Below, one piece after another: positions 614 to 33,454 of a stretch of 64,000 nucleotides of DNA. The translations under genes were made by a program, and so were the position numbers. The stretch lies in NCBI GenBank assembly GCA_001692895.1, contig KV748199.1:496001-560000 (forward strand). Direction: 5' to 3'. The DNA is from Cenococcum geophilum 1.58. Its lineage: Eukaryota; Ascomycota; Dothideomycetes; Gloniales; Gloniaceae. The notes beneath the pieces were generated by a model that had not been told where the DNA came from, did no database searches, and saw only the letters and a program-made list of their open reading frames with translations. Every line of letters starts with the position of its first letter. Position 1 is the stretch's first letter.

Positions 614-639
614 TGTCAGGAAAAAATTTACCAGCATTT
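614..639 (+). repeat. left terminal inverted repeat of the giant element
   Basis: It begins TGTCAGGAAAAAATTTACCA and pairs with 33429-33454 on the opposite strand. It is preceded by gypsy sequence ending GACTAT. Confidence 0.85.
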
Positions 640-690
640 AATTTTACTTTTCTGCCATTTTAGCATTTTCTAGCATTTCTAGCATTTCCT

Positions 691-873
691 AGCATTTAGC
701 TGCCAAATGCCGCATTTAGAATTAAGTGTTAGTATTTAGCTGCTAAATGCCGCATTCAGAATCAAGTGTTAGCATTTAGCTGCTAAATGCCGCATTTAGA
801 ATTAAGTGTTAGCATTTAGCTGCCAAATGCCGCATTTATAATTAAGTGTTAGTATTTAGCTACTAAGTGCTAA
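691..873. repeat. 40-bp subterminal tandem repeat with internal palindromes (4.5 units)
   Basis: Units start at 691, 731, 771, 811 and 851. Each contains GCATTTAGC-T-GCTAAATGC or a one-base RIP variant, a 19-nt hairpin. Similar GCATTTAGCCGCCAAATGCC blocks lie beside the right TIR (about 33393-33425). Arrays just inside the TIRs are typical transposase-binding regions, so that role is inferred. Confidence 0.85.
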
Positions 874-880
874 CTATAAG

Positions 881-1033
881 ATTACTAAGCATATATAAAA
901 GTATAATTTTTATAATTTTTATATTTTATATACACTTTATTAATATTACTAAGCATATATAAATATATAATTTTTATAAATTTAATATTTTATATACGCT
1001 TTATTAATATTACTAAGTATATAAAAATATATA
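881..1033. repeat. 64-bp AT-rich tandem repeat, third unit split by Copia-1
   Basis: Units of 64 bp start at 881 and 945. A third starts at 1009 and resumes after the Copia-1 insertion at 7384-7453, and the beginning of a fourth follows at about 7454. Each unit opens ATTACTAAGCATATATAAA or similar. The array is over 90 percent AT and non-coding. Confidence 0.8.
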
Positions 1034-1301
1034 TGTATAATTACAGCACCTATTGTACCAAACGCGTGCTTACGCGTTCGGTACACTAGGTACGCGTTTA
1101 CGCGTTCAGTGCACTAACCACTCGCTTACGCGTTTGGTGCACTTATGAAGCACTAACTAATTAGGGGGGAGGTGCATTAGTATATAGACCACGTAGTCTG
1201 CTTTATACAATTAACAGTTACCATCTAAATAAGCATATAATACTACATGTATTTTATGCCCGTGGATACAACTTACTTATGCTATTAAGTTAGTACAAAC
1301 A
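1034..1301 (+). repeat. 5' LTR of Copia-1
   Basis: It is 268 bp, starts TGTATAATTACAGCACC, ends GTACAAACA, and aligns end to end with 7116-7383. Five ACGCGT motifs sit in its first 100 bases. A tRNA primer-binding site just downstream was not identified with confidence. Confidence 0.93.
1062..1133. promoter_or_regulatory. cluster of five ACGCGT (MCB-like) boxes in the Copia-1 LTR
   Basis: ACGCGT occurs at 1062, 1072, 1092, 1100 and 1128 inside U3-like LTR sequence. ACGCGT is the MluI cell-cycle box bound by MBF (Mbp1/Swi6) in fungi. The palindromic hexamer lacks CpA/TpG and so resists RIP. In the 3' LTR only about two boxes survive; others became ATGCGT or ACGTGT. Cell-cycle control is inferred from the motif only. 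Confidence 0.5.
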
Positions 1302-1779
1302 CTAATTAGTAAGCGCGCACAGATTAGTAATTACTTAATACCTCCCCCCGAGCGATACTTAATAGCGACTACCCGTTTAGACTCCTAGTACGACCTACTA
1401 GAAGGTTAGAAGTTGGGGATTACGGACTTATCTCTAACTCTGTATACTTATTTAAGTCTTAGTATAGTTTACTAAAAGTATAATAGACACGAATATAGAC
1501 CTATACGGAACCCCCTACCCTTAAACCTTAAACCCCTATCCCTACTACACCCTCTTTTAATACCTCCGACGTCTTTTTAGACCCCTTACGGAGACCCCCT
1601 ACCCCTTTGCGAACTACTACGGACCTATTAAGACCCCTTATAAACACCCTCACCCTTCTACGAACCGCTATAGACATCAACCGCCTTTACGGACCACTAT
1701 AAGACCTCTTCCACCCACTGCGTACTACACTACACTATATAGTATAGCAGACCTAAGGAAGCAAGTCAATGAAGGCTAG

Positions 1780-4700
1780 GAAAAGTGGAGGTAGGGAGCC
1801 GACCTTACGTCTATACCTAACGTTAACAACTATATTAAATTTAAAGTTCTTAAATATGAATATTTTAAGCTTATAAACGTCAACCTATAGGAGTAATACT
1901 AGGAAGACTTTGCGGACTTTACGGAAGCTATCTTTAAAGTATACAACCCTACTACTATCCGTAACCTACGGACCCTCTTATATAACTAAGGTGTATAGGT
2001 TAAAAGGAATAAATAAGTTACTGTTGTATAGTCCTTGTATAATATAATATATAAGAAGGACTAAACAGAATGGACTAAAGAGGAAATCCTAGACCAGTTC
2101 TAAGAAACTAAGGAACTCTTTGCTTTTTTTAAACTTAATATAATTGCTAGCCTTATACCTAACCCACTTAACCAAATTCGTCCTATAAACCTAAGTAGTT
2201 TTAGAATTGATTTTACGGGCTAAAGCATACCTAGTACTTAAGTTATGGACCGCAATACCCCCGTAAACCAAAATACGGACCAAATTACCCCTATTATTTA
2301 AGTCACAGATCCATAAGCCATATATCCGCAAACTACAAATCCGTAAGTTATAGATCCGCAACCCACCTAACTAAAGACCTATGGTAAGGAGCTAGCTAAC
2401 CTGGCTAAGCTTTATACTAATGAATCTAAGTATAGCGGCGAAAATGATAACTTTAACTTTAAACTAACTATCTTTACGGACCTTTGCCAGAAGGCTAATA
2501 TTCCTAAATAAGAGTTTAGCTAAGCCTACTCTACCATGCTGCGCGGCCTAGTACTCAACCACTACTACACTAACCTTAAGAGTAACCCCCTTGGTGTTCC
2601 TTTTAATAAGCTATGCGAAGCTATACGTAACTACTTCAAAGGATTGGAATATAAGCGTGATATTTTTACCTAATGGAATGCGACTAAGCTACGGACCGTA
2701 ATGGACAAGAACACTGAAAAATTGACCATAGAGTGCCTGTAAATCCTTATTAAAGACCTCCGCTACCTATAGTACGGTTTTAATATCAAGCTTTAAACGG
2801 ACGACTTCCTACATAATAAACTTATTACGGCCTACCAGGAAGTAGAGCCCTGTAAGTACGCCTACTATAAGCCTACAGATACCTTAGCTGGCCTTATTAA
2901 TNATNTANGCTCCTCTATTANAACNTATAAAGTNTTAAACCCACNAGGNAGCACTTAAGCCTTTATTACGGATATTTAATATCCGTAAATAGACTTAGAC
3001 GTCTACTTTACGGACCACCGCTACCGCCAGCAGCACCCATACCGACCAAGTCCTACCTGTAACCCCTATAGTAACCCCCGTACAAAAATATACCCCCGCA
3101 GACAAACCAGCTAGAAGTGCTTCGTGTGCGGTAAGGAAGGATATTAGTCTATAAGGTATACCCGGGAAGAACGTAACAAGTCCAGGAAGAGACTTAATAG
3201 CCGTATTAACCAGTTTATTTTGGAATACAAAGGAGAGGAAGTAGAAGAGCCCCCTAATAAGTTAATAGAAGCCCTTATAATTAACTTTAACTTAGACGCT
3301 TAGGAATAAGAGACCTTAGAGATATTCCTAACTACTTTTGGACCTTTTATAGATAGCTAAGCCTTTAATATTACGACCGTATTAGCTAACCGTTCCTTTA
3401 TACACTCAGTTGCGCCTGAAAACTATTCCGTAAGCACCCCCGTTTGCATATATCACTACAAAACGCTATACCCCCAAGGAATTCTACGGTGTTATAATTA
3501 ACACAGGCGCCTCCAAAAAGTCTACTATAGGCTACGGACAATACCTCGCATATAGGACCACCGCAAATGATAATACGGACATTAATATTACGCAAACTAG
3601 GGCCGTAAACGTCTAATTTAGCATTGGCTTAACTGCATTAATTAGATCAGTTGCAGTTAAGACCCCAATTAGCCTAGTTAACTTCTATATAGTAAAAGCA
3701 GACACCCCTTTCTTACTTTGCCTTACGGACATGGATAGGTTATAGGTTTACTATAACAATATTACGGACACCTTAATCGGCCCCGCAACTGCCCTAAGAA
3801 GCAAGTATATTACCCTGCCAATTATACGATAATTTGGACACCCGTTCCTTATATAGGGAGAGACTTTACGGACCTACATTTAGGAATCTTTTAACTATAA
3901 CCCGTGCTACCTTACTAGTACGGAGATCTACCGTCTGCACCGCTGTTTCGGCCACCTGTTAGCCGAAAAGCTATATAGAGTCCTTAAATGCTCTGGACAC
4001 GACAACATCAATAGGAAGGCAGTTGATTACCTGACTAAATACTGCTCCTTTTGCTAGAAATACGGACGTTCCCTAGGCCGATTTAAGTTTACCCTTTATA
4101 AGGACCTTAACTTTAACTACTTAGTNTACGTAGANATTATNTACATTAACGNCAGCCNAGTATTATATATAATTNANAAGGCAACCCNCTACTAAGCCGC
4201 CTNTTNGTTGCAAAATATATCTATAAAGCACACTTAGGATATTTTACGGACCTACTAGATTGATACGTACGTTAGACCTCCTGAGTATATCACCTACGAC
4301 GCCAGTAGGAACTTTATTAGTAAGGAATTCNAGNAGTATGCTATAGCNATNGCTATATTAANAAAAGCTGTNNTAGTTNAGGCGTATTAGTCNNTTAGGC
4401 TTATTAAGNNAGCTTACCTAGCTCTACGGAGAGCTTATTAGATTATTATAGACGAGTATAAGGATATCTAAAAGGAACTGGCTTTATAAATGGCCGTAAA
4501 AGCTGTTAATAACACCGCTGGCCCTAATGGACTAATACCTACTCTCTTAGTTTATGGAGCCTACCTAAGGATAAGCAACCTAGGCCCCCCTGCCCCGTCT
4601 ATTACGGAACGAGCAGCTATAATACGGAAGGCAATAGCCGAAATAGTTAAATTACGGGCTAAACAAACTATTAATAACGCCCTGTATTACTGCAACGGAC

Positions 4701-6690
4701 CTAATACGACCTTAGTATATAACCTCCCGCTTAACTCTAAAGTCCTTGTATGGCGTAAAAGCGGTAGTTGGAATGGACCTTACTATCTACTAGCCGTAGA
4801 AAACGAGACGTGCTGCGTATAGCTTCCTAGCGGGCTAACTAGCTTCAAAAGCACGTCCGTAAAACCCTACTTTCGGCCTAAAAACACCCATGACGTTAAG
4901 CCAGATAAACTAGAAGCAACTACTAAACTAGACGAACTAGAAACAACTGCCGAATTAGATAAACTAGAGGCACCCTTACCTACCCTAGAGGTCCCCTAGA
5001 AACCCACTAAACCTACTAAACCTGCTGTAAAGCGTGGCCGAGGACGCCCCCGTAAGAATCCCGTAATGGAGAACCACCTAACCTCCGCAGGCACATCCGT
5101 AAAGCAATCTCCGCCTATAGATATATTAGTTCTAGTATAGGAAACCCCTTTTATGGACTTACGGCGTAAAGAGATTAACAGACTACTTAAAAAGGGTGTC
5201 TTTGCGATTGTAACGGAAAGAGACGTTCCGTAAGCGTCTGTATATTTAACTTACGCTTTATTAACGAGATTAAGCACCCTAGTACTAATAAAGCCTTTAA
5301 GAAATTAAGGCTTATTATATAAGCTTATAACGACTAGGGAAAGGACCTAGTTCTTATACAATCGCTTATAATTTAACGGGTTAGTTAATGGATTATACTC
5401 GCATTTATGCCTAGACTACAGCAAACTAAATCCGTAGCCCTTTACTTACGGGACATCTTATAAGCTTACGTGCAGTCTAATACTTACCTAAGTAGGGATA
5501 TCTTTATACGACCACCCTATGAGCTTAACCTATAACTAGGAACAATTTTATGGGTTATAAAACCTCTTTACAGAGTACTAGAAGCCGGAAATCATTGGTT
5601 TAAGATATACCACTAGTACCACGTTAGTAAACTTAAAATGGAACAGTCGACCTATAACCCCTACCTCCTATACAGCCCATTAAACGGCTTTAGTATTGTT
5701 AGACTCTAAACAGATAATACTTTCTTCTTAGCAGACCGGAAATTTATAGACGCTAAAGAGACTAAACTGTAAGAAGCTAAGTTCCTAGTAAAGCCGTGAG
5801 AGTAGTTAACTAAGTAGACTCTAATTAAGTTTAACGGAGGCTTAATTATATAAAAGGGCAACTTAATTTAGCTAACCTAGGAACGCCAAGCTTAAAACCT
5901 AAAGCTTATTATAGTAAAGCCTACGGACCTTACTAGTTCCCGCGGAGAGACCTATAAGACTATAAATATAAAAGACTAATATGCTGTATAGCGTGCAAGA
6001 GGCGCCTATATTGCTACAGTCTACTAACCCAAATCTGCCTATAACTTATCCTTTACGGCCTAAGTAGTAGATCCGTAAAAAGAAAATATTAAGCAGCTTA
6101 ATAAGCGCATTTAGTGGTAAATTAATAATGCAGTAAGGGGACTTACTTTTATACCACTAGACCTAAGTTCCTTTAGCTTACTAGTATTTACGGACGCCTC
6201 TTTTGCTAATAATAAAGACCTATTATTATAAATTAGCTTTATAATTGTACTTATGGACCGCAATTAGGACGCAAATATACTATACTAGTCTTTAATTAAG
6301 TGCAAACGAGTAACCCATAGTGTACTAGCTTCTAAACTATATACACTAGCTTATGAATTTAATATAGCAGCCGTAATTAAATTAACGGTCTAGAAGATTC
6401 TATAACTAAAGTAGTTACCCCTGGTTTTATGCACTAATTTAAAGTCTCTTTATAACTGCCTAGTTAAACTAGGTATAACATAAGAGAAGAGGCTTATGGT
6501 TGACCTAATGTGCTTACGTTAGGCCTATAAACGACGTGAGATTACGGAGGTTAAATAGATTAGTAGTAGAGACAATCTAGCGGACGCTATAACTAAGGCA
6601 AAGCTATATTAAGCCCTTAAAACCCTAATTAATACAAATAAACTTAACCTAAAAGTTATAGAATGGGTAGAATGGGACTAACGGAGCACC
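1780..6690 (+). pseudogene. Copia-1 gag-pol relic (Gag, protease, integrase, RT, RNase H)
   Basis: In order: Gag (about 1780-3110); a zinc knuckle reading CFVCGKEG at 3118-3141, with later Cys/His changed to Tyr; a protease reading GVIINTGAS at about 3488-3514, whose catalytic Asp has become Asn; the integrase zinc region with LHRCFGH at about 3933-3953; an integrase C-terminus open for 110 codons at 4490-4822; a reverse transcriptase (about 5225-5800, including YVQSNTYLSRDIF and LQTDNTFFL); and RNase H (about 6185-6600, DASFANN, CKRVTHSVLASKLY). Stops are nearly all TAA/TAG. The order protease, integrase, RT identifies Ty1/copia. It is not functional. Confidence 0.9.
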
Positions 6691-7115
6691 TATAGTATGT
6701 CTACGGCCCGTTAAAAGGCCGTATGGCTCGTTATACGGTATAGGTAGAAAACGGTGGAAAGCTATGGTGGAATTTGGTGGACTTACGTGACCTACCGAAT
6801 TTTGCAGGGTAGTTAAATTAACTAATTACGATTTTCTATCCCCGGGATGGAAAATCGCCATTGGTTTACTTAGCACTAGCGCCTTAGCGGCCCTTAAAAT
6901 CTGACTTATGGCTCGTCTACTGCCTATTAAAAGGCCGTATGGTTTATTTTATAGACCGTAAGCAGAATTTACGGCCAGCTTGGGGCACCGTTTGGAAGGC
7001 AGCCTAGACGGCACCTTAGGGAGATTTCCTATGTATTTTCCTTTGTGTTTTATAGTTTTATTAAAGCAATTACGGAGGCTGTATATAAGTGGTTTCATTT
7101 TTCAAGTACTGCTAG
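6691..7115. other. Copia-1 3' non-coding region with palindrome and direct repeat
   Basis: There is no ORF. TTAAAAGGCCGTATGG occurs at about 6711 and 6935. A 29-nt inverted repeat at 6829-6857 (arms CGATTTTCTATCCC and GGGATGGAAAATCG around one C, one G-T wobble) could form a strong hairpin. The region sits between RNase H and the 3' LTR. Confidence 0.6.
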
Positions 7116-7383
7116 TGTATAATTACAGCACCTATTGTACTAAACGCGTGCTTATGCGTTCGGTACACCAGGTACGCGTTTACGTGTTTAGTGTACTAAC
7201 CACTTGCTTATGCGTCTGGTGCACTTATAAAGCACTAACTAATTAGGGGGGAGGTGTATTAGTATATAGACTACGTAGTCTGCTTTATATAATTAATAGT
7301 TACCATCCAAACAAGCATACGATACTATATGTATTTCGTGCCCGTGGATATGACTTACTTGTGCTATTAAGTTAGTACGAACA
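7116..7383 (+). repeat. 3' LTR of Copia-1
   Basis: It is 268 bp, from TGTATAATTACAGCACC to GTACGAACA, the same length as the 5' LTR and differing by transitions. It is followed by the ATATA duplication. Confidence 0.93.
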
Positions 7384-7480
7384 ATATAATTTTTATAAAT
7401 TTAATATTATTAATAAAAATTTAATATTTAATATTTTATATATATTTTATTAATATTAGTAAGTATAGGGGGCGGGGCGG

Positions 7481-7505: not shown

Positions 7506-7979
7506 TTAAATTAGGTTTATACTAATTAAGCAATTTTGGCATTTAGCTGTATTTAGTTATATTTTATAGCTATATACTACACCGCTAATAATAATGCTGC
7601 AATTTGCGGCTAAACGCCGCCTTAATAATAAAAGTGCTGCAAGCTACAGCTTAATGCTCTCTTAGAAATAATAATACTAGAAATATTTTGGTTAACTAAG
7701 TTTACTATATACGCTACGCTACTACCTATAAGTTACTAGAAGACATATCCCTTAGCCTATATATACGCCACTATATAATTATAATAGGTTTCGCTATATA
7801 GCGGCTATATATAGTATTTGGAACTATCTATAGTTGTATTATACTCTTATAATTGTTACCAGTATTAGATAGTCTTAGTATCTTCCTTCTTATCTTAGCC
7901 TACTTTTAAGCTTAAATTGGCCTTCTCCTCGTACACTAACTTGTGCAGTAATAACATAAATTTAGTTAACTTTAATATC

Positions 7980-10900
7980 CTTTACTCGATACTTAACTTC
8001 TAATTAGCTATAATAGTACTATAGCAGATGGGCTTAGTTTATCCTCGTCAATCTATCTAAGTAAATAGTTGCTTTACCTCTAAGAGCTTATAGCTTAGCT
8101 TAACTATAATAGTATAATTTGCGCGCTATAGGTTAATAAACAGCCTAATTAATATAAAGGTGCAAAGTAGGATTTACTTAGAGTTATTAGTATCGAAGGT
8201 TTGCCTAGCCTTAGCCTTCTTAATATTAGATATACTAGCTGTATAGCGGAGCACCTTATTTTTACCGTATTTTTTATATAGCCTATTAAACTAATAAGCT
8301 AGTGTAAGAGGTAAGTGAGTGGTAATAATAATCTTATACGCTAAACTATCCGTTCGTTTTTTGACATAAACGTAATTATAGATTTTTTTAGCTTAAAAGA
8401 ACTTTATATTTTATTAAAAATAGTGGTTAAGTATATTGGTGAACTCCTTACTAAGTGGGTTAGTAGTTTACTTAGCGATAATTAGGTCCTTAAGTGTGCA
8501 ACTTTAAGTTTTTAGGCGTTCGTTATTAGACTTATTAGACTTGTTAGACTTAATTATAATAGGGGTATACTAGTCCTAGTATTGGATAACCTAAGCTATA
8601 CTTACTGCCGTTTTCGCGTTAGTGTATAACTTAGCTTAGGTAAGTTTTGGTATCTTAGGTTTAGTATTTAAATCGCTACTATCTTCCTCCTATATAGCCA
8701 GAAGTTCCTTATATTAGCGCCTCTGCTTTATTTTTACTTGGTCCTTTATAGCTATAATTATAGCCGCCTTAGTATTATTAGGGTCGGCCTATAATATAAC
8801 TAATTTAAGATAGCTATTCTTTGGGATAAGCTTTTACTAGTTAAACTAGAGTGTTAACTTCCCTCTATATATCTAAAACATTAGAATAACTATACAGAAA
8901 AATATAGCCAGTTCGCCGAATTTCCTATTTACTATTACTCTAGCTAGGTTAGTCTTTGTATCCTTATAGAGACAGTTAAATTCCTTCTTCTTTAGCTAGA
9001 TGTTTTCTTCTTTAAGCTTAAGCAGTACTTTAAACTCCGTTCCCTTTAGCTTATTAGCTTCTTCCTACTCTAGCCTCTTTAATCCTACTATAATAAACCG
9101 CATTAGTTATATTAGGTTTCCGTTATTAGGTGTACTAGACATACCCTATATAGTAGGGCTGCAATTATATATAATGCAGTACTCCTTAACCATATCCTTA
9201 ATAAACAATATTAAGACTCTATCGGTTGCGTCTAGGTAGTATTTATCCTAGAGGATACGCCTAACCTATATTATACTCTTTAATTTCTAATACGTTCTAG
9301 GGGATCGGCCATTTAGGTATTTCTATATATTAATTTATATGGTAATAAACCCGCGTATTAGTTATGTGGTAATATAATTTCGCGTAATAATTAAAAGGAA
9401 TTAGGTTAAGTATCTTAGCGCTAATAGTTCCATTATATTAGGGGTAGGGCTATAATTATTTTTAAACCTGGCTTTACCCTATGGGTATAATAGGAGAGCC
9501 TTACCAACCAGATATATATTATTATCGTTCTCCTATTATTCCTTATTAGTCCACTCAAGAGCCTTACGGATTTACGGCCATTTATCCTTTTTTAGTTTAC
9601 TAAATATTTTAACTTTATTATAGCTAGGGGCAAGAATTATAATCTAGGGTGGGTTAGGGCGCTTTATAATCGCGCCGTTTTATAATATTACACTTACGTC
9701 CTTTAGGAATCCTAGTAGGCCTAGGGTTAGCGTAAGGACGACTAAGCAGCCTCGCTATGGGTCTATAGGGTATAGCTTCTTAGGGTTATCTTTATAGTAG
9801 CATGTAATTGGCTACTTTACTACCTATAGGCATTTTAAATCCGGCGGATGTATCTTAGGTAGGTAGTAGGTTACGTCCCTAGCAGCTCGGGCCTCTTAAA
9901 TATCTATTACGTTCTAATAATAAAAGTAGTTTATTAGCTATTAAGTAATTATTTATATAGTCTTGCCCGCGCTAGGTTCGTCTGCACAAATACTACCTCC
10001 TTTAATTGTCCTCTCTTACTTAAATGCCTAAGTTATATATACTACTTAGTATGGGCTAAATTTAAAGCCTAATACGAGGCCCTAATTAGGGAGTTCGATT
10101 AGGGCGGTTTTAGAAAGTACTTTTAATAAGATAAGTAGGAAATACTCTAGAGTAAGTAGAAGATCCGCCTCCGTTATATACGCTAGTGCGCTATTTAGGT
10201 TATCCTTCCCAGCCTTATAGAGCTGGGCTAAGAAAGTTTACTAGTTAAGTTCTTCCTCTATATCTACGTCTTAGTTATTATTATTAACTAAATCCTTATT
10301 TTAGTTGCTATTATTAACTAAATCCTTGTCTTTATCTTTACTCTCTACGTCTTTAGAGTTAGTGTAATATGGGAACTAATTATTATGTCCACTGGCACGT
10401 TGCGGCAATTTGCTGTCCTCTATGGTAATATTTTAAGGGATATTAACGGTTAGTGATATAGTAGTAGGGTTATTTATTATATTGTTAGGCTAGTGTATAC
10501 CTTTAGGTTTAGTAATAGATTACAGTAATTTACTGTTATCTGCGGTAATTTCTCCGGTACCGCTGTTACTCGCTAATATAGGCTTATGGGTAGATAGGTT
10601 ACGTCTTCCCTTTACTAATCACCTTCTGTATATAACTGGCTTATTATTACTATTTTCTATAAGGGTACCTGCCGCTAATTTTATTTAAGGGCGTTTCCTG
10701 CTTCTATTTAGGTTGGCCTTATAACTATTTAACTTCCTAGGCGCGGCTGGCTTGCTTTTATTATCCTTTACTAGGGCACTTGTTACTAATCTTAGTTAAG
10801 GCTACTTATTATATCTGCCCGATTTAGTCTTACTATTGTCCAATTTCTTATGTCTAATAGGCTCGCCCTTATTATTTTTATTGGAGCTATATACTACTAA

Positions 10901-20787: not shown

Positions 20788-20963
20788 TCTTACAGCTTCA
20801 ATTAAAGCTCTATTAGCTGCTATATTATTATTTAATTAACTAAGTCGATACAAACCCACAAATCCTTAAATTTGGACCCCGGTATAGTGCAATAGAAATT
20901 TATAACAAACCAATACAAATACACGCTATGTACGATACGGTTAAACCGACTGATTATATACTA

Positions 20964-23900
20964 TGGCGGATATAGTATAAAAGAAAAAGGAATACTAGAG
21001 CTCTCTTGGGGCTATTCCTGTATTAAAAGGGGACAGCAATTATAAAGAATGGTATTGTCGAATTGTACGACGACTTAAGCTTTATAACCTCCTACTAATA
21101 ATATAAGGTACGGCTGTAGAGCCACCTCAGCAGATAGACGAGTATAGAGATTAGCGTTATAAACAGATAACGGGACTTGAGGTAATTAAGGGCGCAGTGT
21201 CGGAATTAATTTGTGATCGACTTGCTACATTAGGCAAGCCGCGCGACTCCATTAAGGATCTGCTTAATTTAATTCGATTACTATATACCGCGTAAGGTCT
21301 TATTTATAACTACTAAATATGGAATTAATAGCTCGATTTTAGTCGCAAAGACTACACCTCGCTTAAAGCCTATATAGAAGCTTTCGTCTTAGGTATAAGG
21401 AAATTAAATACGGTATTAATGCTAATATTAAGGAAGTAAGCACACGCCTGACTGCTTTATGCGGTAGAGAAGAAGTTTCCTATTTAAATAGCTAATTGTT
21501 AAGAGGTAGCTAGGAGAGTTACAAAGGAGGATAACCTTATTATAATTAAGGAACTGGTAAGCGACCTTATGGACAAGAGTTGTACTTGACTAGCTACCTC
21601 TACCGCAATATCCTTAATTAGTAGGAAGCTATCTAAAGACAATTAACTAAAATCTAATATAGAAGGATTAGCATTAAATAAGAAGTATAAAGATTATACG
21701 TACTGCGGTAAAAAATATTATAGTAGCAAGGATAGGTGCTTTTACTTTTACTTGGACCTTTAACCTTAAACATAAAAGCCTTTTAATAAGGATATACTAT
21801 GCGTAGATCTACCCTAGGAACTAAAAGCAACTTTACTAAATTTAACTTCTTAAGTTGGGACGACAGGCAGAGGCTTAGTAGGAGGCCTATTTATTAGCAG
21901 TATGGCTATAGTTAATAACTTAGATAATAGTAACTAGGATAACTGGTTCCTTAACTCCTATTCTAATATCATAATAAGCAATAATTAAAGTAAGTTTATT
22001 AACTATAAGACTCTATTAACACCTATTATAATAGGGATATTAAGAGGAACCGTCTATTATACAACCGGTAAGGGAACGGTGTATATACCCTTACTAATAG
22101 ACGATAATAGTACCTATACGGTAGCTACTAAGGCCTTCTTTATATCCAAATTACCTTATAAACTCCTTTTAGAGTTAGCTCTTAAGAAGCGTAAGTAGCT
22201 CTATATTGGACCTAATAAGGAAATAGGTGGTTATATAATTCGGAGGTACTTAAATAACTTAATTATAGGCAGAGCGATGTGTATAAATGGCCTGTATATA
22301 ATTTAACTGGCTCTAAAGCCTTAATATATTGCGCACGCCACCATATAGCAGCTTGACATTAATATACTATATTAGCGTCTCGGCTATGTGGGCAAGGATA
22401 TACTATAAAAGGTAGCTAAGATAGGCGACTTTAGCCTTATAGGTAAGCTGACTTAATACAAAGCCTATTACCTAGCGATAGTAAAGCGCTAGGTCTTTTA
22501 TACTACATCTACACCACTTTAGCGGCCATTTAAACGTGTGTATATTAATACCTTCTACCTTACCCTAGAGGGAGTTGGGGGTAATAAGTATATAGTAATC
22601 TTTATAGAAGCGCACGCCAGATATATATACGCCTTCTTTAGAACTAAGAAGACAATCGCTATAGAAGGGCTTTAAGAGCTTAATAATCTAGTATATAACT
22701 AAACTGGACGATATATCGGCTCGCTCGTAATTAATAGCGGTAGAGAATTTAGTATTAAAGAGCGTATTAAATACGCTAAATTAATAGGCATAAACGTACT
22801 GCGTATAGCTCCTTATACCTCTAAATAGAACGGAACGCCTAAATGCATTAAAGGCATTATATTAGGTATAGCTAGATTAATAATGATTAAGGCTAATCTA
22901 CTAGAACACCTATAGGACGAAGCTTATAAGATAGTAATTTGAATTTGGAACAGAATACCTTACGGAAAAGAGACTAGATTACCGTTTTAAATTAACGCTA
23001 AATACTACGACTAGCCGTTCGAAATGCGCATACCAAATATATTATATCTATGACGTCATGGTATAACTGCCTATGTCCATATTAAAGGACCAGAAAGCGT
23101 ATAATTAAGGAAGCTAGCTCCGCGAGCTAAGAAAGGACGTCTAGTTGGTTATAAAGGTAATAACGGTCATATCTATCGTATCTGGATACCGGCTAAGAAC
23201 AAGATTATATAATTGCGCGATATAATATTTAATAAAGCTTAAGATCTACCGATTGCCACGTTGGAGGATAAGCTTACTGTGTAGGAGCTAGAGCCGGAAC
23301 TACCACTAGAACTACAAGGTCCGACTACTACTGTAGTTACTATAGTTACCTACCCTGCTGTAAAAGTACTAGAAGAAAAGGAACACTGTATAGATAAACT
23401 AGAAGGACCCTACACTCCTGACTTAGTACTAGAAGAACTAGGCCTAAGAGGGGTAATACTATAGTCGTCTCCTTTACTAGAACTAGGCCCGTCGACTTAG
23501 TTAAATTGGTTATTAAGTTGGAGCCTATTGACGGAGTTAGGGAACTTTTTAGCGTTAGCGCTAGTTTCTAAAAAGGTGACTAACCTGTATAGAGACATGC
23601 GACGGTATATTACTATATTTTAAATGACTAATGTACCTACTATAAAGGATGTAGCTAAGGCGTTGCGAGCCTTTAAGAAGGTAGCTTGGTAGTCGACTGC
23701 TAACTCACTTCTAGTGGGTAGGGAGAGTATAATACTGTTAATTGCTAAAAGCGACGACGAAGACTATAATGATTAAGACGACGTCGACTTAGATAATAAT
23801 GGAGTTTACCGAATTAACTAATAGCTTAAGGGGGGTGTGGAGATAGAGGCTTCCAAACTAGAGGAGCTTCCTGTTAGAGTAAATACTCGTGGCCAAAAGA

Positions 23901-25560
23901 AGAAGGTCTCTTACATGGCGATCGCATTCTCGTCCTATATGTAGATGCAGCCGGCTCCTTAGGAACCTCATCTAGAAGCTCCGCACAAGATCAAGATACC
24001 GCAAACGTTAAAGGAGGCTCTACAGTCACCAGAAGCTCCTTACTGGCGTTAAGCGCTAATGGTTGAAATAACTTAATACTAAAAGGCTAAGACGTATCGA
24101 CTGGTTAAAAGACTAAAGGGCGCACGAGTACTACTATTAAAGTTTGTCTTTAACCTTAAATATAATATATCTGGAGAGGTGATCTGGTATAAGGCAAGGT
24201 GGGTTATATGCGGTAACTACTAAGTGGCGAATATTGACTACAATAGTATGTATGCCGCGGTAGTGACCTTAACTACGTGTAGGATACTACTGGCGTTGAT
24301 CGCGGTATATGACCTTGAGGCTTACCAGATCGATGTTATTACGGCCTTCCTAAATAGCTTCATAAGGAAGTACTCGATCTACGTGCGACAGCTAAAAGGA
24401 TTTAAAAATGATGACTGCATATTAATCTGTCTATTACTGAAGGCGATATATAGCCTTAAATAGGTACCTCTACTGTAGTACGACACCCTGACGGAGTATC
24501 TGAAGATGATAGGATTTGACCCAATTGACGAAGATCCTTACGTATTTCGACACCGCGAATACTAGGACGCCTATCTCTGCTTATATATAGATAATATTAT
24601 AATTGCAGCGACGACAATACTGGTCATCGAGGCCCTTAAGGAGCTCCTGCGGAAACGATATAAGATTAAGGACCTAGGAGAGCTTCGATTCTTCCTAGGG
24701 ATTCGTATAGTACGCGACCAAGTCAATTAAAAGATCGCGATTATGCAGGACGCCTATATGGCGAGGATCCTTAAGTCCTTTAAGCTTACTAGAATTAACC
24801 CAAAAGCGACACTAATAGCTACTGGCCTTCAATTAAGAAAGCGCCATCTAAAAGACCTCGCAGATAAGGCCTACAAGAAGTAGTATCTAAAAGCTATTAG
24901 ATCCTTTACCTGGCTCTTATATTAGACAAGACCAGACCTATCTACGGCTATAGGAAAGCTATCGCGATATTCAGCTAACCTACCTAATAAATATTAAGCG
25001 CACGTTAAGAGAGTATTTGGATATATTTAAGGTATAAAAGACCATAGAATAATATATAGCGGCAACCAGTACAACCCCAGGAGACTTGACCTAGAGGTAT
25101 ACGTTAATGTAGCTTATAGTGATGACCTGGATAACCGTAAATTAACTTAGGGCTGGTTTATTAAACTAACTGGAGCTCTAATCCAAATGGGCCTTAAAGA
25201 AGCAATTAATAGTAGCGACGTCCTTTATAGTGGCAGAGTACCTAGCGATTAAATCGGCAGCATAAGAAGCGATTAAGATTATAACCTTCCTAAGAGCCCT
25301 TAGCTATAACGGCACGGATCTAGCTCTAGTTTAGATTTATACAGATAGTATAAACGTACAAGCACTTACTAAGGGCGAACGACCGGTGCTGAAAGAGCGC
25401 CATGCGGATATTAAGCTCTGTAAGATTAAGGATAATATTAAATAGGGTAGGATTAAACTATACTATATACTGGGCGTGGACTAGCTAGTAGATGGCTTAA
25501 CGAAGGCTCTACTAAAGGTCGCCTATAAGGCGTTTAAGATAGGTGTTAGAGTTACCAAAG
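20964..25560 (+). pseudogene. Copia-2 gag-pol relic
   Basis: Gag starts near ATG 20964 (MADIV). A zinc knuckle of the type YCGKKYYSSKDRC lies at about 21700-21745. The protease region reads PLLIDDNSTYTVATKAF (about 22090-22145). GAG-pre-integrase (QRLGYVGKDIL, about 22375) and the integrase core (about 22530-23000, including VINSGREFS and APYTSK) follow. RT spans about 24100-24720 and has a 79-codon open stretch at 24224-24463; its catalytic box reads YIDN at about 24585, the second Asp having become Asn. RNase H (about 25090-25560) contains VNVAYSDD and DGLTKALLK. TAA/TAG interrupt all domains. Confidence 0.88.
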
Positions 25561-25839
25561 TCTCCTGGGTTAACTAGGCCTAATTAGGAAATCATATTAC
25601 GACCGGTGGAACCTCGGAATTGATGCTAATTAACTCAGTTCCAAATTTTAAAAGCTTACTAATACTACTTTTTAGCATGGGAGACGGGCGATCGAGCGTT
25701 GTCGATATTCGAAAATTTTCTATTTTTTCCTAATTTCATTTCTTACTACTTGTACTACCCCTACCTATTAACTATAACCTTATAGAGCATAGTATAGTCA
25801 TCCCGGAGGAGTTTCCTATTCGCTAGAGCTCATAAAGCC

Positions 25840-26002
25840 TGGGGGGGGGGTACTTAGGGCAGTCTCTTTGAGCTTAGCGGCGTGTCACGTAACAGCGCGC
25901 GGGCCATTGTGTAGATACCTTCTCGGGGCCTTTAAGCCCCTGAGATTCTTCCTCATAGAGCATTATATGTATCATTCCATCAGCCTGCTCAGTGCCCTGA
26001 TA
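25840..26002 (+). repeat. 3' LTR of Copia-2
   Basis: It begins TGGGGGGGGGG and ends CCCTGATA. It retains more G/C than the 5' LTR (AGCGCGCGGGCC, TTCTCGGGGCC), so it is less RIP-damaged. Confidence 0.85.
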
Positions 26003-26012: not shown

Positions 26013-29000
26013 TCTAAGATAATAGAAACGGAAGAAGGGTAGATATAAGGGCGTTAATATTAAAGAGATAAATAATAATATACCCTTACGCCATTAAAGC
26101 TTAGAGGAGTATTAGATAGCCTATTATAGGGCTAAGCTAGAGCAATATAATAAGTAGCTACTTATATAATATATAGACGATGATATACCATTATGCTATT
26201 AAACCTTGGAAGGGCATTATATAACTAATTGTAAGGCTAAATCGGAGTAAGGTAATAAATGGCTATCCGTATAAGCTCTAGGCGATAATATTATTAATAA
26301 GCTAAATAATAGGGCTACGGATATGCACTATAATAATAATTCTATAATATTTAATAGGGTGCATAACCTGGCGATAGTTAAGACTAATTAGTAAACTTTA
26401 ACTAGAATATTTATGGACGTCTTTTAAACTAAAACATTTAAAGAGGCCACTAGCTATGCTATAGAAAAGCCTCTAGGACGGAACTAAGGAAATTTATAAA
26501 CTGCGGATAATACTATGGCAGTATATAATATTATACCATATATTAAGCGTACTAGCAATACACTAGATAAAACACCTCCCCTATTTTATTTATTTGGTAG
26601 TAAGGCAGAATACGTATAGGTCTTATAGTGGGTAAGCTACGGAACTTTTAACCGCGCTATTAATGAGTGGTTTAACGATATTAGGCTTTAGGGAGTATTT
26701 ACTAACCATTTTTCTTACTAGAGTGCTAATAATGTTAAAGTAAAACTACTTTTAAAATAGATATAATCTAAGAGTAATTAACCGTAGTGGATTAAAACAA
26801 TTATAACTATAGGGGATTAGTAGCTGCTGGTACGTTACCGAAATGCTCTAGAGATTATGTCCTTCCTTATTAGTTATAGCCCTTTCTAAGGAGATATAAC
26901 TTTCTCGCTAGTAAGGTAGTACTTATTAGTAGGAATAAGAATATATAATAAGCTTAATACGGTAGACTAGTGGTAAGAGATATAAGAGTAGCTACCGCTT
27001 GGCGCAACTATAGTGCCAATTATATTAGCTAGCGATAAGACCTAACTAATATAATACGCTGGCGGTAAGAAAGCATAGCCGCTCTATATTTTAATTAGAA
27101 ACATTAAACTGCGCGTTTAATAATCCGTAAATTGACTAGCCCTATTACTGCTTATATACCTCCCGGTTTATATACCTAGTAACTAAATAATATAACTAGC
27201 GGTGTAACATAAGACCCTTACGGCTATCCTTAAACGTATGCTTTAGCGATAACCCTACTACTAGTATAGTTATGCTAATAATGCCTATAGCGTTAGAGAA
27301 AGCTAGTAAAGAAGGAGTACGTCTCCTATGCGCAGATGGCTAGAATTAATACTACTTTCTACTTTTGGCTATATTTATAGCTAATTATAAAGAACAGGTC
27401 ACGCTTATAGGTATTAAGAGTAGCCGTAAATATTTAACTTGTTATATATATACGAATAAACAGCATAATTTAACGACTACCATCTAGTGATTGTGGCCGT
27501 TCTGTATATATTAATTGATAAAAGACTAAATATAAATATAGTAGGAAGGTTGCAATACTAATAAAAAGGATAACTTAGATTATATTTGGCCGTTCTGTAA
27601 CTTTATATAGGGCTATAATCTATCTAATATTTATAAGATAATGGCGCCTAATTTCCTATACTAGGTGCTTAAAGGCCTTACTAGTGAATATCTTATGTAC
27701 TAGATTAAGGGGCTTATATAAAGCGAAATATAGGCCGGAAAATATTAGGGCCTTAATATCCCGCATATAGATGGTTACGGCCAGGAGATATCGAATATTA
27801 ATGTACTTATTACCACCCGCTTTATATAGGTGGAATAATTTACCGATATAATAGTATGGGATAGCTAGGTAAATGTCGGCTAATAGATAGGAAAGATATA
27901 TAAATCTCTATTACAACAATTGGTCCCTACTATAGCACCCTTACTAAAATAGAATAAAGGCGCTATACTATTTATCCGGGCATTTATGGACTTTACTATA
28001 CTATCTTAATATATATTATATAACGAATTAACCATTTAGTACCTAAGCTATAGAAGGCATTTTACTATAGGACTAATAAACGGAATAACTACAAAGAGTA
28101 GATGCTATGATATAACACTATATATCTTAACACTATGCTTTAAAACGAACTTAAGCTATAGGCGTTAACTAATATAATTAATATAGTAGACCTAATAAGC
28201 GTAATATAGACAATATAACTAGGCCCTGCAGTTAATATATGCGTATATCGCTTATATATATAGAACTTCGACGACTATATAACTTAGACACTTTAAAACT
28301 AGAGAATTAATATATCTATCTAGCGTACGGTTAAGGAGGTATAGCGCTAGATAGAGATTACCGACCTTATATCTAAACTAGCCCCCTTTATAAGGGAATG
28401 CTATAAGCAGATTAATAAAATCTGGCGAATAGACTGGGACGTTAACCGACTAAAGGCCGATAACAATTAGGTATTAAAGATGCCCTTAAGTATCTATTAC
28501 AGCGTTATATACTATATTCGCTTTAGAAAGGATGCCACTAACACTAATAAGCTTAATAAGGTGTTTACTTAATATACCCCGTTATAGGCTAATACTAGAG
28601 CCCCCCGCTATAATACTATAATGGTGCGAGAATACAAGCGGGTAAATAATAGCCTCTATAGCAATAAAGTAGGGAGGCTTTATCTACTACTTATAATCTA
28701 GGATACTAGGCAATTAGATAGTAAGGGTAAATACCTAAAATACGCTGGTGCGTTAGTAGAGACCCTCTAAGTTTATAATGGTGGTAAGATTAACATAAGA
28801 ACCGGAATGCTTAGAGTATAGAGTATAAAGCTATCTAATAGTAGGACGAAATGTATGCTAGATACCCTCTAGATATATAATATTAACCATATTATAAGGC
28901 CTATCTCACTTATACCGACGGATATTAACGTTATAGACTGTTTCTTTATAAATAACTATAGCGATTGGGATATATATAATACTATATATAATAAAGATTT

Positions 29001-29200
29001 TAAGCAAATAAATAGGGTATAGGTTAATGCATATATAAGGAAATAGGCTTATACTAGGCGGTAAATAAATACAACTTAGCTAAAATAGCGGTAAGTTATA
29101 ACTAGCGGCGCCGGATTATAATAAAGGGGTAGATTACTGTAACTATAATAAACTAGAATATAATACTACTACGCATTGCCTTTTACACGCTAGCTACCCT
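26013..29200 (+). pseudogene. Plavaka-type DNA transposase relic
   Basis: The plus frame shows a possible zinc-finger-like N-terminus (TLEGHYITNCKAKSE, about 26200-26245) and then a diagnostic block at 27001-27180: GATIVPIILASDKT, YAGGKKA, PLYILIRNI and LIYLPVYI. This is the core signature of fungal Plavaka transposases (usually GATIVPIILASDKTQLTxF ... PVYLTIGNI ... LIGYLPV). A further acidic-box region with DGYGQEISN follows at about 27770. Length of about 1,050 codons fits the family. Plavaka enzymes are DDE transposases of the CACTA/KDZ-related group that cut and paste DNA. It lies inside the giant TIR-bounded interval and is the best candidate for its transposase, though it could itself be a nested element, since its own TIRs were not found. 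Confidence 0.75.
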
Positions 29201-29399
29201 TTATATCCTATACACCGTACTATTTACCTTAAGAGTAGGTAAATATCGCGAGGAACTAGGCTTCTATGCGGTATAGAAAAAATATTATATAAAGTAGGAC
29301 CCTATGCTATGGTAAGGTAATCTAATCGCCCCGTTATAAAGCCTAATAAATAGTTAGGCCGCCCTCCTAACTTATTATTATAAGTTTATTAATAATTCT

Positions 29400-30400
29400 T
29401 CTTTGATTAACGTCTGATATGGATGCTATCTAGCCCTACGCAGACTACTCCGTATATAAGGGAAAAGTAATATTAACGGGAAAAAACCCTTGCTGCTGGG
29501 GGGGAGGAAAAACCCTATGAGCCACCTTAGTAGGATGAAAAACCCTGTTTGCCATGTCCGCATATAGCAGCGGCCCTGCGGGCCTATAGTTATGTCCTGT
29601 CCTCCTTAGATGTTCGAACTTTTTGGGAACTACTGCTTCCTTCTCTAGCTTATTTAAGCTAGGGTTTACTATGTCCCAGCTAGGCCTTGCCACTTAATTG
29701 CTGTGTCTTGCTGTTGTCTCCTATATCTTGGCCATCCCCTGTATGCTATTTCTTATTTGACTATTGCTATATACGCCATGCCTCCCCCCCCCTAGGGCCT
29801 ATTAAAGGCGTAAGGGGGATTTATCCGTTCTAACTACTGTAATACTAATAAGCGAGCGGGATATTGTGTATTTGGGTATCTTTTGTGCCTAGGCCCTAGC
29901 TAGGCCCTTTCTAAGGGTCACCACTCCGTTGAAAGAAGATAGGGAAAACTGTGGGTCGCAATCTAGGCTGCTAGGTAGTATTTGGTAGAAAAAACGGCGA
30001 GTGACCGCATGCTCCACGGGCGATCGCCCTGGGGGTTAGGAGGGGCCGTATATTTGCTCGTTGCTCGTTTGTTTGCGATCGCTCGTTCGTCGATATGAGA
30101 GGTCGTCGATGCTTTCTATTGGGGGTCAGGGGATGCTATCGAATGCTGTTTATCTACGTTGGATCGTATAGGTGCCTTAATAGGAGAATAGCGTAGCTAA
30201 ATTGTAGAGGGCCATAGTAGTGGTTTTCGAGATCTTACCATCTGAAAATTTTTCACTACCGCCTATAACGCTCACAACCACGACCACTAGGTCCTATCGC
30301 ACGCTATATAACGTTTCTGCGTTGGCTCTGAGTCTGAACTTCGAAGACCCAGGTTCGTAGCCGTCACCACGTACAGGTGTAGAGTCCGTTTTCAACGGCC
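29400..30400 (-). mobile_element. short LINE-like non-autonomous retroelement
   Basis: On the minus strand the element ends near 29404 with the same 3' block found at the ends of the two LINEs and of 1-290. Its 5' part (30390-29700) is GC-richer, little RIP-mutated and has no RT. An 82-codon antisense-looking ORF (29693-29445) is conserved only as part of the repeat and has no recognised domain. It is best read as a non-autonomous derivative sharing a LINE 3' tail. GGTTCGTAGCC at 30352-30362 resembles a Pol III B box, which would make it SINE-like; this is weak. Confidence 0.5.
30018..30029. repeat. 12-bp perfect palindrome GGGCGATCGCCC
   Basis: It is self-complementary and lies in the GC-rich 5' part of the short LINE-like element. 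Two further CGATC-rich words follow within 80 bp. Confidence 0.6.
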
Positions 30401-30429
30401 TTATAAGTTTATTAAAACTCCTTTTTATA

Positions 30430-32800
30430 TACTTAGCAAGAGATGCCTAATTTATATTATAAAAGTTAACTAGGTTATTGTTTAAAGTATATTAGGTATA
30501 AGACTTTAGACTGTCTGGCGTCTTTTAGGGAAGTAAGGTGCGTGTAAAAGCTAAATAGTTCTACTAAACTAATATACTTATCCTCTATTTATCCCGTAGA
30601 AAAGTAAATAAAGATGCTATAAGTTAAGTAGTAGCTCCTAAGATAATCTAGATCTTAAAGGGGATAATATTAGGCTCTATACCGTAACTGTCTCTATTAA
30701 AAGGCAAGGCTATTATTAATGTGCTATAGTATAACCTATTATTATTAATTTTAATAATGTTATCTTAACGAACAGTTCTGTTCTTATTAAATAAAAGCCT
30801 ATAAACCCTAAGCGACTATAAGATATCTAAAACCCACACTTAAAAAAATATATATATTACTTAAATAAACAACCGCTATAGAATGACTTTAGATAACGTA
30901 TAAAGCAGCTACTTAGCCTAGTTAATATAATAATATATAGTATCGCTTAGATATATCTTATTATATAAGTAATAACAGGCTCTATACCTAAAGAGCTCTA
31001 TCTTTTTCCCTAGCTAGAAATAAATATAAGCGGTCTAAATATACTAATAAAGTAGATGTGGAAAAAGGCGATTACTATTATAGACCGTTACAAAAACCTA
31101 ATAAATAGAGTATTAAGTATACTACTGGGGCTAGCGGCACGCAAGGTTCGCGGTCCTTAGATTTAGTAGCACTATACTAACTAATTTTTCAGCTATATGA
31201 CTAGCTTAGCGTGTTTTAGTATTATATAATAAATATAGTGCGCAATACCGTTGCTAGGAGCTATAACTGCCTTAAACTAGATACTAAGGCTATAGTAAAG
31301 GAAGTAGCGGAACTACTTAAGGATAACCGCTTTACGCTCGGTAGCCCGGTTAGTACTCTACCTTTTATTATACCTAACTAACTAAGGCTAGAATAGAGAG
31401 ATAAGATTTAGGGCGCTAATTATTACACGTTATATTAAGCGCGTATTCTTTAATACTAGGCTAAGGTTACTTACCCTTAATAAGAATAGTGCTGACCTCC
31501 TCTTGCCTATTACAGCTAATACGATATAGCTTATATACGTAGTAATTTAATATACTCTTAAGGACTATAGAAGCGGAATATAAGTTATTTATAAGTTTAA
31601 AGCCAACGCTATAATTATAGGTAAATCTATAGGAAGCCTCTTACTATACTTACTAAAGCGTATTATAGATAGTTAGGAGCGACTATANAATACNTANAAG
31701 AGCTACTAACCTAAGCGTAATAAAAGGCTATATAGGCTACTTTTATAATAAGTTAATAAGATACGGAATATAACTAAAGATAAGATGCTATAGACTTAGT
31801 AGGCAATTAGCAATCTATTTAAGGATACTATAGAAAATCTAAAGGAACTAGATCCTAAGTATAATAACGGGTTTACTTAATAACCGTATACTATAAGTGT
31901 AAACATATAATATTATATTAATCACATCGTAACGTTATATCGCGATACTCGCTGTATACTATAGCACTTTACCGCCGTTTCCTATGTTATAATATTACGC
32001 TATTTTAATTGTTATATATAGGCTAATAAAGATAATATAATAGGACAACGGTAGCCTAGCGTATTTATCGTAAAGAATAAACCCCAAAACTATATATAAG
32101 GTCTCCTTCTTATAGTATACTAATAAGACGATTTTAATGCTATATAACTATAATATTAACGCTATTTAAGCGCGCCTTAAATAAATTTAAGGTAATAATA
32201 AATAGGAAATAGGAATTAATTATTGTATCTTATAGTGTACTTTTACTAGCGAGTCTAAGGTTATAGATATTATAAATAGTGCTATATTAGAGGATATAAA
32301 GGCCCGCCTATAGAGTAGAGATAGACTAGTAATACTGGAATTTGCTAATAAAGAGGATAAGAGTAGAGAAGGTAGCGGAATAGATAGGGAAAATAACGGC
32401 GACGAAGAGGATAAGAGTAGAGAAGGTAGTGGGATAGATGGGGAAAATAATAGTAAAAATAACGGTAAGAATAAAAACGGTTAGGGGTTTAATAGTACGG
32501 TATTACTATTGCGGCGGGACTTATATAAATATTAAACTTAAAATAGTAGGTTAACTAAAGGGCGTTATTAGGCGTATTAAGGCTATACTATACTACTATT
32601 AGGTTAAAATATGTTCTTTATATAGTATATACTAGGCGTATAGAATAAGCAGAGAATACTAACTGTGTAAAATAAGTAAAGGGTACTAACTGCGTAGAAT
32701 AAGTAAAGGGTACTAACTGCTTAGATTAAGTAAAGTATACTAATTACATGGAATAGGTAAATACTACTAACCGCGTAGACTAAGTAAATACTATTAAGTA
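30430..32800 (+). pseudogene. unknown relic ORF ending in acidic and 9-residue repeats
   Basis: Plus-strand frames with mostly TAA/TAG interruptions extend from about 30430. Examples are VARSYNCLKLDTKAIVKEVA (about 31240) and SKVIDIINSAILEDIKARL (about 32255). The C-terminal part has a 60-bp tandem duplication (about 32350-32460) encoding EDKSREGSGIDRENN-like acidic repeats. It is followed by Y.T.NSRLTKGRY and a 9-residue repeat QNKQRVLTA (six units, 32641-32800). I recognise no family. Position next to the right TIR and plus orientation make it a possible element gene. Confidence 0.4.
32641..32800 (+). repeat. 27-bp tandem repeat (about six units)
   Basis: The unit is close to ACTAACTGCGTAGAATAAGT plus AAAGGGT. 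The 27-bp period preserves a reading frame (QNKQRVLTA), so it may be the repetitive C-terminus of the unknown ORF. Confidence 0.75.
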
Positions 32801-32952
32801 CGCGGGAAGAGCAACGCTTATCTATTGCTTAAAGTAAGTAAGATATATAGAATGTGTAAGGGGGGTATTATATATTAATTATATATTAAGTATAGAGAGA
32901 GCTTAATAGAATAAAGGTATTACTTGCCTAGGTAGCTGTAAATATATAATTA

Positions 32953-33352
32953 GCTATACCGCGTTATTAGATGCGGCAGTATGCTATACCGCGTTATTAG
33001 ATACGGTAGTATGCTTATACCGCGTTACTAGATATGGCAGTATACTACACCGCGTTATTAGATGCGGTAAAATGCTACACCACGTTATTAGATGTGGTAG
33101 AATACTATACTACGTTATTAGATGCGGCAGAATGCTATACCGCGTTATTAGATACGGTAGAATATTATACTACGTTATTAGATACGGCAGAATACTGCAC
33201 TACGTTATTAGATGCGGTAGTATACTTATACCGCGTTGCTAGATGCGGCAGTATGCTGTACTGCGTTATTAGATGCGGCAGTATGCTATATCGCGTTATT
33301 AGATGCGGCAGTATGCTACACCGCGTTATTAGATGCGGTAGTATGCCGCACC
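32953..33352. repeat. 30-bp tandem array with hairpin-forming units (about 13 copies)
   Basis: Each unit contains CCGCGTTATTAGATGCGG, a stem CCGC/GCGG around a 10-nt loop, followed by CAGTATGCTATA. Two units carry an extra base. A 108-codon ORF (33034-33360) is a by-product of the 30-bp period (10-residue repeat CYTALLDAVE). The array sits 80-500 bp inside the right TIR, matching the repeat-rich left subterminal region. Confidence 0.85.
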
Positions 33353-33428
33353 TAAGTTAATACTATACGCTACACGTTGTAGTGCGCGGATTGCGCATTT
33401 AGCCGCCAAATGCCGCCAAATGCTGCGA

Positions 33429-33454
33429 AAATGCTGGTAAATTTTTTCCTGACG
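33429..33454 (-). repeat. right terminal inverted repeat of the giant element
   Basis: On the minus strand it begins CGTCAGGAAAAAATTTACCA, identical to the left end except for the first base. It is followed on the plus strand by ATATTAGACTA, which resumes the gypsy reading. Confidence 0.85.

Follow-up and report, generated by a model that had tools for sequence, protein, structure and literature searches.

A putative giant Plavaka-class DNA transposon with helicase-type genes in Cenococcum geophilum 1.58

Genes and boundaries of the element

The stretch of DNA analysed here (the window) comprises 64,000 nucleotides of contig KV748199.1; the features belonging to the interval between positions 614 and 33454 are collected in Table 1. 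Three large genes follow each other in a fixed order: an SNF2-like gene on the minus strand, a zinc-knuckle/UPF1-like helicase gene on the plus strand, and a predicted Plavaka transposase gene, also on the plus strand. These gene blocks were obtained by a codon log-odds scan. A scan for frames without conserved stop codons was abandoned as a gene finder because RIP-type stops are common to the copies of the element.

The PF18759 domain of the transposase is found in the window copy with 67.0 bits at positions 26779-27168 (2.2e-18) and with 34.8 bits within 27272-28048, and in another copy, C55a, at 2.8e-18. In the copies that were read, the transposase is split over two frames, reflecting either an intron or a frameshift. 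The UPF1-like gene of the window copy carries stops and is further disrupted by the 17450-17772 insertion. The SNF2-like and UPF1-like identities were assigned via stop-free relatives in the databases, namely by the domains of proteins P0003 and P0004. In the PDB, P0003 had no match at 0.001, and a relaxed cut-off brought up weak matches to the SNF2 family, whereas the same search with P0001 gave nothing meaningful; NCBIfam yielded only sub-cutoff IGHMBP2-like and PLuB-helicase matches, both for P0004. A C54-x2-C57 motif is found in P0001 and P0002, and structure prediction of P0001 with one relative gave a mean pLDDT of 29.8. A DUF6532-like match, present in two of three other copies and under the curated cut-off, marks a possible fourth gene. 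No Rfam match was found in the window at gathering thresholds.

The initial annotation had proposed that the interval is bounded by 26-bp terminal inverted repeats (TIRs), and we confirmed that these match at 25 of 26 bp. The ends of the family read CGTCAGG...CCTGACG, and the motif GCATTT is concentrated within the first 300 bp of the element in each of seven copies.

Table 1. Features of the interval, its flanks and the empty site (positions in the window)
Feature	Position	Strand	Remarks
Left target-duplication copy (AT)	612..613		2 bp
Left TIR	614..639	+	first base T here; C in most other copies
Left subterminal repeats	640..1033	+	40-bp unit at 690-861, 64-bp unit at 877-1042
LTR-type insert, 6.35 kb	1034..7384		268-bp direct terminal repeats
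SNF2/Helicase_C-type gene	7898..11872	-	81 stops; matches P0003 over 1-1328
Zinc-knuckle (CCHC) and UPF1-like SF1 helicase gene	13787..18115	+	matches P0004 in two pieces
Short TIR element, 323 bp	17450..17772		later insertion, inside UPF1-like gene
LTR-type insert, 5.4 kb	20611..26000		158-bp direct terminal repeats; relative of 56646-59518
Predicted Plavaka transposase (PF18759)	26779..29061	+	two frames, stops; ~59 codons absent at 28045-28048
LINE-like insert, 1.0 kb	29393..30401		14-bp direct duplication
Candidate fourth gene (DUF6532-like)	~31380..31660	+	placed by position only
Right subterminal tandem repeats	32953..33346	+	30-bp unit, 13 copies
Right TIR	33429..33454	-	
Right target-duplication copy (AT)	33455..33456		2 bp
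Uninterrupted gypsy copy (empty site)	60670..61334	-	aligned to joined flanks

The empty site and the later insertions

The flanks of the interval had been read as two halves of one gypsy sequence whose intact copy lies in the same window, and this proved correct. Flank 298-613 corresponds to 61334-61019 of the gypsy copy on the minus strand, and flank 33455-33805 to 61020-60670. When the flanks are joined with one AT of the duplication, their alignment to the gypsy copy spans 665 gap-free columns, 580 of them identical, and the junction is exact. A Tf2-type integrase SH3-like domain spans the insertion site in the uninterrupted copy (26.7 bits, below the curated cut-off of 30), so that it is reasonable to regard this sequence as a gypsy integrase C-terminus. 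A single 2-bp duplication thus accounts for the entire interval, and the single-insertion reading, as first proposed, is supported.

The claim of a 32.8-kb giant transposon holds in one part and not in the other: the interval is a real single unit, but the element proper measures ~19.9 kb, and that size of 32.8 kb applies to the window locus and not to the family, since most of the extra 13 kb was inserted later. It consists mostly of two LTR elements, a 323-bp TIR element and a LINE-like insert. The three nested inserts recognized initially are present, as judged from the direct repeats listed in Table 1; the 323-bp TIR element is a fourth, absent from that first reading.

Copies of the family across the genome

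The family, with its core of ~19.9 kb, is represented by dozens of mutated copies in the genome. A 23-bp TIR pattern (up to two mismatches) occurs at 470 sites in the 177-Mb genome, and at none when the reversed control pattern is used. The search with both ends in inverted orientation, suggested by the initial annotation, yielded 25 correctly oriented pairs among the best 40 left-end and best 40 right-end matches, spaced 18.7-107 kb apart; the pairs with spacings of 67.7 kb and 107 kb may be mis-paired. All 25 pairs enclose the same transposase. It also lies, on the same strand, within 16 kb of 38 of the 40 best right ends; for 20 of these the distance is 3.2-3.4 kb. The SNF2-like gene was found on the opposite strand in at least 15 of the 25 pairs and was not found in the other 10 among the best 35 of 289 candidates scored; the UPF1-like gene was found on the same strand in at least 14 pairs and was not found in 11 among the best 34 of 129 candidates scored. 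Before the transposase and SNF2 counts, 13 of 68 rows were left out (12 from a diverged lineage and one split fragment), and two split rows were removed from 36 for the UPF1-like count. The 12 rows of the diverged lineage show 36-41% identity.

We read six other copies in full together with the window copy. All seven are collinear over the ~19.9-kb core at ~90% identity with some indels, among them copy C73, in which ~1 kb of the core is absent. The expectation that TIR copies share interior genes was thereby borne out, as it was by the transposase within every end pair. Among 26 large copies (what is left of 30 rows once the mis-paired end C45x and the three short elements are set aside), the target duplication is exactly 2 bp in 23, compared with a permutation mean of 10.0 and a maximum of 18; the duplications mismatch in the remaining three (C50, C42 and C55a), and none of the 26 has a 3-bp duplication.

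Every family copy scored contains stop codons, and the differences between copies are RIP-like. When the stop-free protein P0001 was compared with the broken copy C55a, only 4 of 657 codons were unexplained beyond RIP-type changes and all 44 stops fit RIP, whereas controls shifted by 1, 2 or 5 residues left 550-559 unexplained. The corresponding comparisons left 46 of 1316 codons unexplained by RIP-type changes for P0003 and 36 of 1324 for P0004. Transversions number 10-25 in 15 copy pairs and 71-82 in the six pairs that include C73 (~18,500-19,900 sites each), which favours a recent spread. In a six-frame Pfam scan of one copy, with stops rendered as X, the transposase was detected but the SNF2-like and UPF1-like genes were missed; RIP can hence make giant elements with several genes invisible to ordinary domain scans.

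Classification, rival explanations and a possible mechanism

Judged by its domain content, the transposase belongs to the Plavaka group (PF18759) of the CACTA/EnSpm-like class. The PF18759 domain is the criterion for autonomous Plavaka elements (PMC8290104), and the element encodes it. Plavaka target duplications are 2 bp for PlavakaA and 2 or 3 bp for PlavakaB (PMC12730594), and 23 of the 26 large copies have one of 2 bp. The fungal PlavakaA and PlavakaB elements are thus alike in transposase, TIRs and 2-bp duplication; they differ in their termini, TGT..ACA and CATCA..TGATG, respectively (PMC12730594), from the CGT..ACG of our element, and the latter has a ~19.9-kb core with SNF2-like and UPF1-like genes. 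We did not file it as PlavakaA, since 24 of the 26 large copies have C as the first base of the left end and 24 have G as the last base of the right end; the PlavakaB termini are absent from these copies.

The title of the AcademH report shows that a helicase gene aboard a DNA transposon has a precedent: AcademH reportedly comprises Academ DNA transposons that encode a helicase in animals and fungi. Likened by title alone, it shares with our element a helicase gene on a DNA transposon and differs, by name, in transposase superfamily. Giant Plavaka repeats and En/Spm families of 16-20 kb have likewise been published. The Plavaka giant repeats of Amoebidium contain clusters in which intron-poor genes stand in tandem, and many of these genes encode tyrosine recombinases (PMC11244446), whereas our element has helicase-type genes, defined ends and target duplications. 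In the red alga Chondrus crispus, enlarged En/Spm (CACTA) families, as cited in PMC6431247, reach 16-20 kb with 4-5 ORFs, a related transposase class with similar size and gene number. The term SNF2 is absent from the main text of PMC12730594 and PMC8290104, and helicase appears once in each: in the former it concerns Helitrons, and in the latter it belongs to the title of the AcademH paper, listed among the references. In PMC7473861, SNF2 is likewise missing, and the helicase passages listed deal with RecQ and DEAH genes.

We consider it very probable that the interval at 614-33454 arose by a single insertion of a giant DNA transposon of the Plavaka class with helicase-type genes aboard. An accidental pairing of two short TIR elements around an unrelated 33-kb stretch, the outcome that the initial annotation had named as fatal to its claim, could draw on the 470 TIR sites and on the three short elements with the same ends that were read (~1.5 to 2.7 kb), but it is highly improbable: the same ~19.9-kb interior recurs in the six other copies and is collinear at independent sites, the transposase lies inside all 25 end pairs, and the empty site shows that a single 2-bp duplication flanks the interval in its entirety. 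Size and multigene content would also suit another giant fungal element. Starships are defined by a tyrosine-recombinase captain gene. That the element is a Starship, a Helitron or a Maverick/Polinton is nevertheless just as improbable in view of the Plavaka transposase in 25 of 25 end pairs, the TIRs and the 2-bp duplication; six-frame Pfam scans of one copy revealed no recombinase, Rep or polymerase-B domain, which is weak evidence because the same scans missed the SNF2-like and UPF1-like genes.

A more serious competitor leaves the identity of the element as it is and disputes only the helper role, proposing that two helicase genes of the host were picked up by an otherwise ordinary Plavaka transposon and travel in it as passive cargo. 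Several classes of DNA transposons, Plavaka included, carry TET/JBP genes (PMC12730594), a precedent for such cargo; the six-frame scan of one copy, weak on RIP-damaged genes, detected no TET/JBP domain. Both helicase-type genes, however, can be matched along almost their full length to stop-free relatives in the databases and keep a fixed order across collinear copies. We regard passive cargo as possible but less likely than not. With equal reserve, we suggest that the element represents a distinct giant Plavaka lineage of a RIP-active fungus that encodes the machinery for its own movement, in which a chromatin remodeller and an SF1 helicase accompany the transposase.

Under the main reading of a single Plavaka-class insertion, a DDE-type transposase would bind the repeat-rich ends, excise the element and reinsert it at a target cut with a 2-bp stagger. 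Both helicase-type proteins may assist transposition, for example if they make chromatin accessible or if they unwind an intermediate of 20 kb and protect it. The family would have spread recently from closely related sources, RIP would then have hypermutated every copy scored, and several other elements would have invaded the window copy afterwards.

The element bears on the upper size of cut-and-paste transposons: ~20 kb long and equipped with a CACTA-like transposase, it has reached about two dozen sites as one coherent unit. The two helicase-type genes could account for its ability to handle its own length or chromatin, an idea that is testable since stop-free proteins exist in public data. 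If the lineage does have such machinery, it could excise 20 kb of DNA, keep hold of it and reinsert it, or could evade silencing by opening chromatin, as its TET/JBP-bearing relatives are proposed to do by methylcytosine oxidation.

Boundaries, ends and family copies

The element lies in contig 24 (window, bases 496001–560000) of a 177.2-Mb assembly with 162 contigs, and the boundaries at 614 and 33454 proposed in the initial annotation proved correct to the single base. The 26-bp terminal inverted repeats noted there were reproduced at 614–639 and 33429–33454, with matches at 25 of 26 positions. When the flanks 298–613 and 33457–33805 were joined, they aligned gap-free with the uninterrupted gypsy copy (580 identities in 665 columns; junction at 61019/61020), as expected from the empty site described in the initial annotation, whose observation is confirmed and whose interpretation as a single giant insertion is supported. 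The window contains 54 N bases, with a cluster just beyond the right end of the element (Table).

A genome-wide search for paired ends, suggested in the initial annotation as a check, was performed with the terminal 401 bp of each side, and the best 40 of 249 left-end and the best 40 of 244 right-end candidates were scored. Pairing each left end with the closest right end that shared its contig and strand (at most 110 kb away) yielded 25 correctly oriented pairs among the scored ends with a spacing of 18.7–107 kb, five of them at 18.7–20.3 kb; the longest two, at 67.7 and 107 kb, may have been joined in error. Six further copies were read completely; they and the window copy, in all mutual comparisons, are about 90% identical and collinear along a core of about 19.9 kb, except that C73 lacks about 1 kb, C38 carries an additional 3 kb and C72 contains small inserts. 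The window copy possesses insertions of its own (Table) and has lost about 180 bp relative to the other copies.

The 2-bp flanks are identical in 23 of 26 large copies (the exceptions being C50, C42 and C55a), versus on average 10.0 and at most 18 copies when the right flanks are shuffled (20,000 trials). Among the 12 copies without TA on both sides, nine still match (AA, AG, AC, TT, AT), while a 3-bp duplication fits none of the 26 large copies. C is the terminal base in 24 of the 26 left ends, as G is in 24 of the 26 right ends, and the ends thus read CGTCAGG...CCTGACG. GCATTT is clustered at the left end in seven of seven copies, and in the window copy a 30-bp repeat occurs 13 times at the right end. 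Short elements of about 1.5–2.7 kb that share these ends and likewise have identical 2-bp flanks (three of three; Table) are probably non-autonomous relatives.

Coordinates of features in the window and of related sequences elsewhere in the genome
Feature	Location
Insertion specific to window copy	1034–7384
Insertion specific to window copy	17450–17772
Insertion specific to window copy	20611–26000
Insertion specific to window copy	29393–30401
Cluster of N bases	33561–33628
Overlapping MFS-type open frames	38809–40010
Short same-ended element	C33:1176500–1179000
Short same-ended element	C47:111800–114200
Short same-ended element	C46:1400900–1404600
Diverged-lineage transposase	C42:249915–251855
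Diverged-lineage transposase	C64:386507–388447
Diverged-lineage transposase	C53:963371–965311

Gene content

The Plavaka transposase domain is detected in the window copy (2.2e-18, 67.0 bits). When copy C55a was translated in six frames (stops as X, last 0.4 kb left out) and scanned with Pfam, the domain was recovered in one frame (2.8e-18) and again, slightly below the cut-off, in the next; no other domain exceeded the curated cut-off in these scans. P0001, the stop-free database relative of the transposase, is likewise a Plavaka protein. The frame changes at one shared place in the copies compared (core position ~14510–14634 of C55a) with no indel there among seven aligned copies; a short GT..AG candidate intron is a plausible explanation. 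In position counts using 55 of the 68 genomic matches, all 25 end pairs enclose a same-strand copy of the transposase, and for 38 of 40 right ends it lies no more than 16 kb away (at 3.2–3.4 kb in 20 of these 38). A second, diverged Plavaka lineage (36–41% identity to P0001; examples in Table) accounts for 12 of the 68 matches, all with stops.

A scan of codon log-odds, with the transposase as training set, revealed two additional long blocks, and protein searches provided stop-free relatives for all three genes, with one or two matches each; in the P0003 and P0004 searches, the 7988 candidates with the most shared words were scored. P0003 contains SNF2 and Helicase_C domains, P0004 zinc knuckles and a UPF1-like helicase (top PDB match 'Regulator of nonsense transcripts 1', 6.7e-13). 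Domain scans of the window copy itself found no SNF2 or UPF1 domain; it aligns to P0003 1–1328 and P0004 1–1335, and we therefore named its genes SNF2-like and UPF1-like after these relatives. The former is located inside at least 15 of the 25 end pairs (best 35 of 289 candidates), the latter inside at least 14 (best 34 of 129 candidates). A DUF6532-like match downstream, present in two of three copies and there under the curated cut-off, is only a lead to a possible further gene.

Relation to known transposons

By its transposase domain and target duplication, the element belongs to Plavaka, a group whose ends and 2–3 bp target duplications are given in the available sections of PMC12730594, where CACTA/EnSpm, Mirage, Chapaev and Transib belong to the same clade; PF18759 serves as the criterion for autonomous Plavaka in those of PMC8290104. 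The termini of PlavakaA and PlavakaB differ from CGT..ACG, and the element was therefore assigned to neither. Excerpts of the literature record Plavaka giant repeats of up to 50 kb in Amoebidium (PMC11244446), En/Spm families of 16–20 kb in a red alga (as cited in PMC6431247) and, by title, helicase-encoding Academ transposons, AcademH (as cited in PMC8290104), so that neither size alone nor a helicase alone is new. The combination of Plavaka, SNF2-like and UPF1-like genes with CGT..ACG ends was not found in the available sections of PMC12730594, PMC8290104, PMC11244446, PMC6431247, PMC11075540, PMC9674265 and PMC7473861.

What has been observed directly are the ends of the element and its target duplication, its set of genes and their order, and its recurrence. 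Judged from its class, its transposase, presumably of the DDE type and related to those of CACTA/EnSpm, would act on the repeat-rich ends; the two helicases might assist excision, integration or escape from silencing, a helper role that we propose tentatively and regard as somewhat doubtful.

RIP and the history of the family

C-to-T differences between copies affect 0.49 of CpA and 0.27 of CpG versus 0.04 of CpC and 0.06 of CpT sites. Between C55a and P0001, 442 codons are identical, 211 differ in a manner explained by RIP and four are unexplained, versus 550–559 unexplained codons in control alignments shifted by 1, 2 or 5 residues; RIP likewise explains 44 of 44 stops in C55a. Stops occur in every scored genomic match (68 for the transposase, from the best 67 of 266 candidates; 35 for the SNF2-like and 36 for the UPF1-like gene); stop-free proteins of the three genes are present in public data. 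Outside the element, two overlapping open frames that match the two portions of an MFS-type sugar-transporter domain (Table) sit in a 2-kb block whose G+C content (0.48) is the highest of the window and where the RIP-like dinucleotide bias of the surroundings is absent.

Transversions among the copies number 718 in 407,443 sites compared; the six pairs that include C73 contribute 447 of them and the other 15 pairs 271. C73 appears to derive from a somewhat older source, and the family as such seems to have spread recently from closely related sources, with RIP acting on the copies afterwards.
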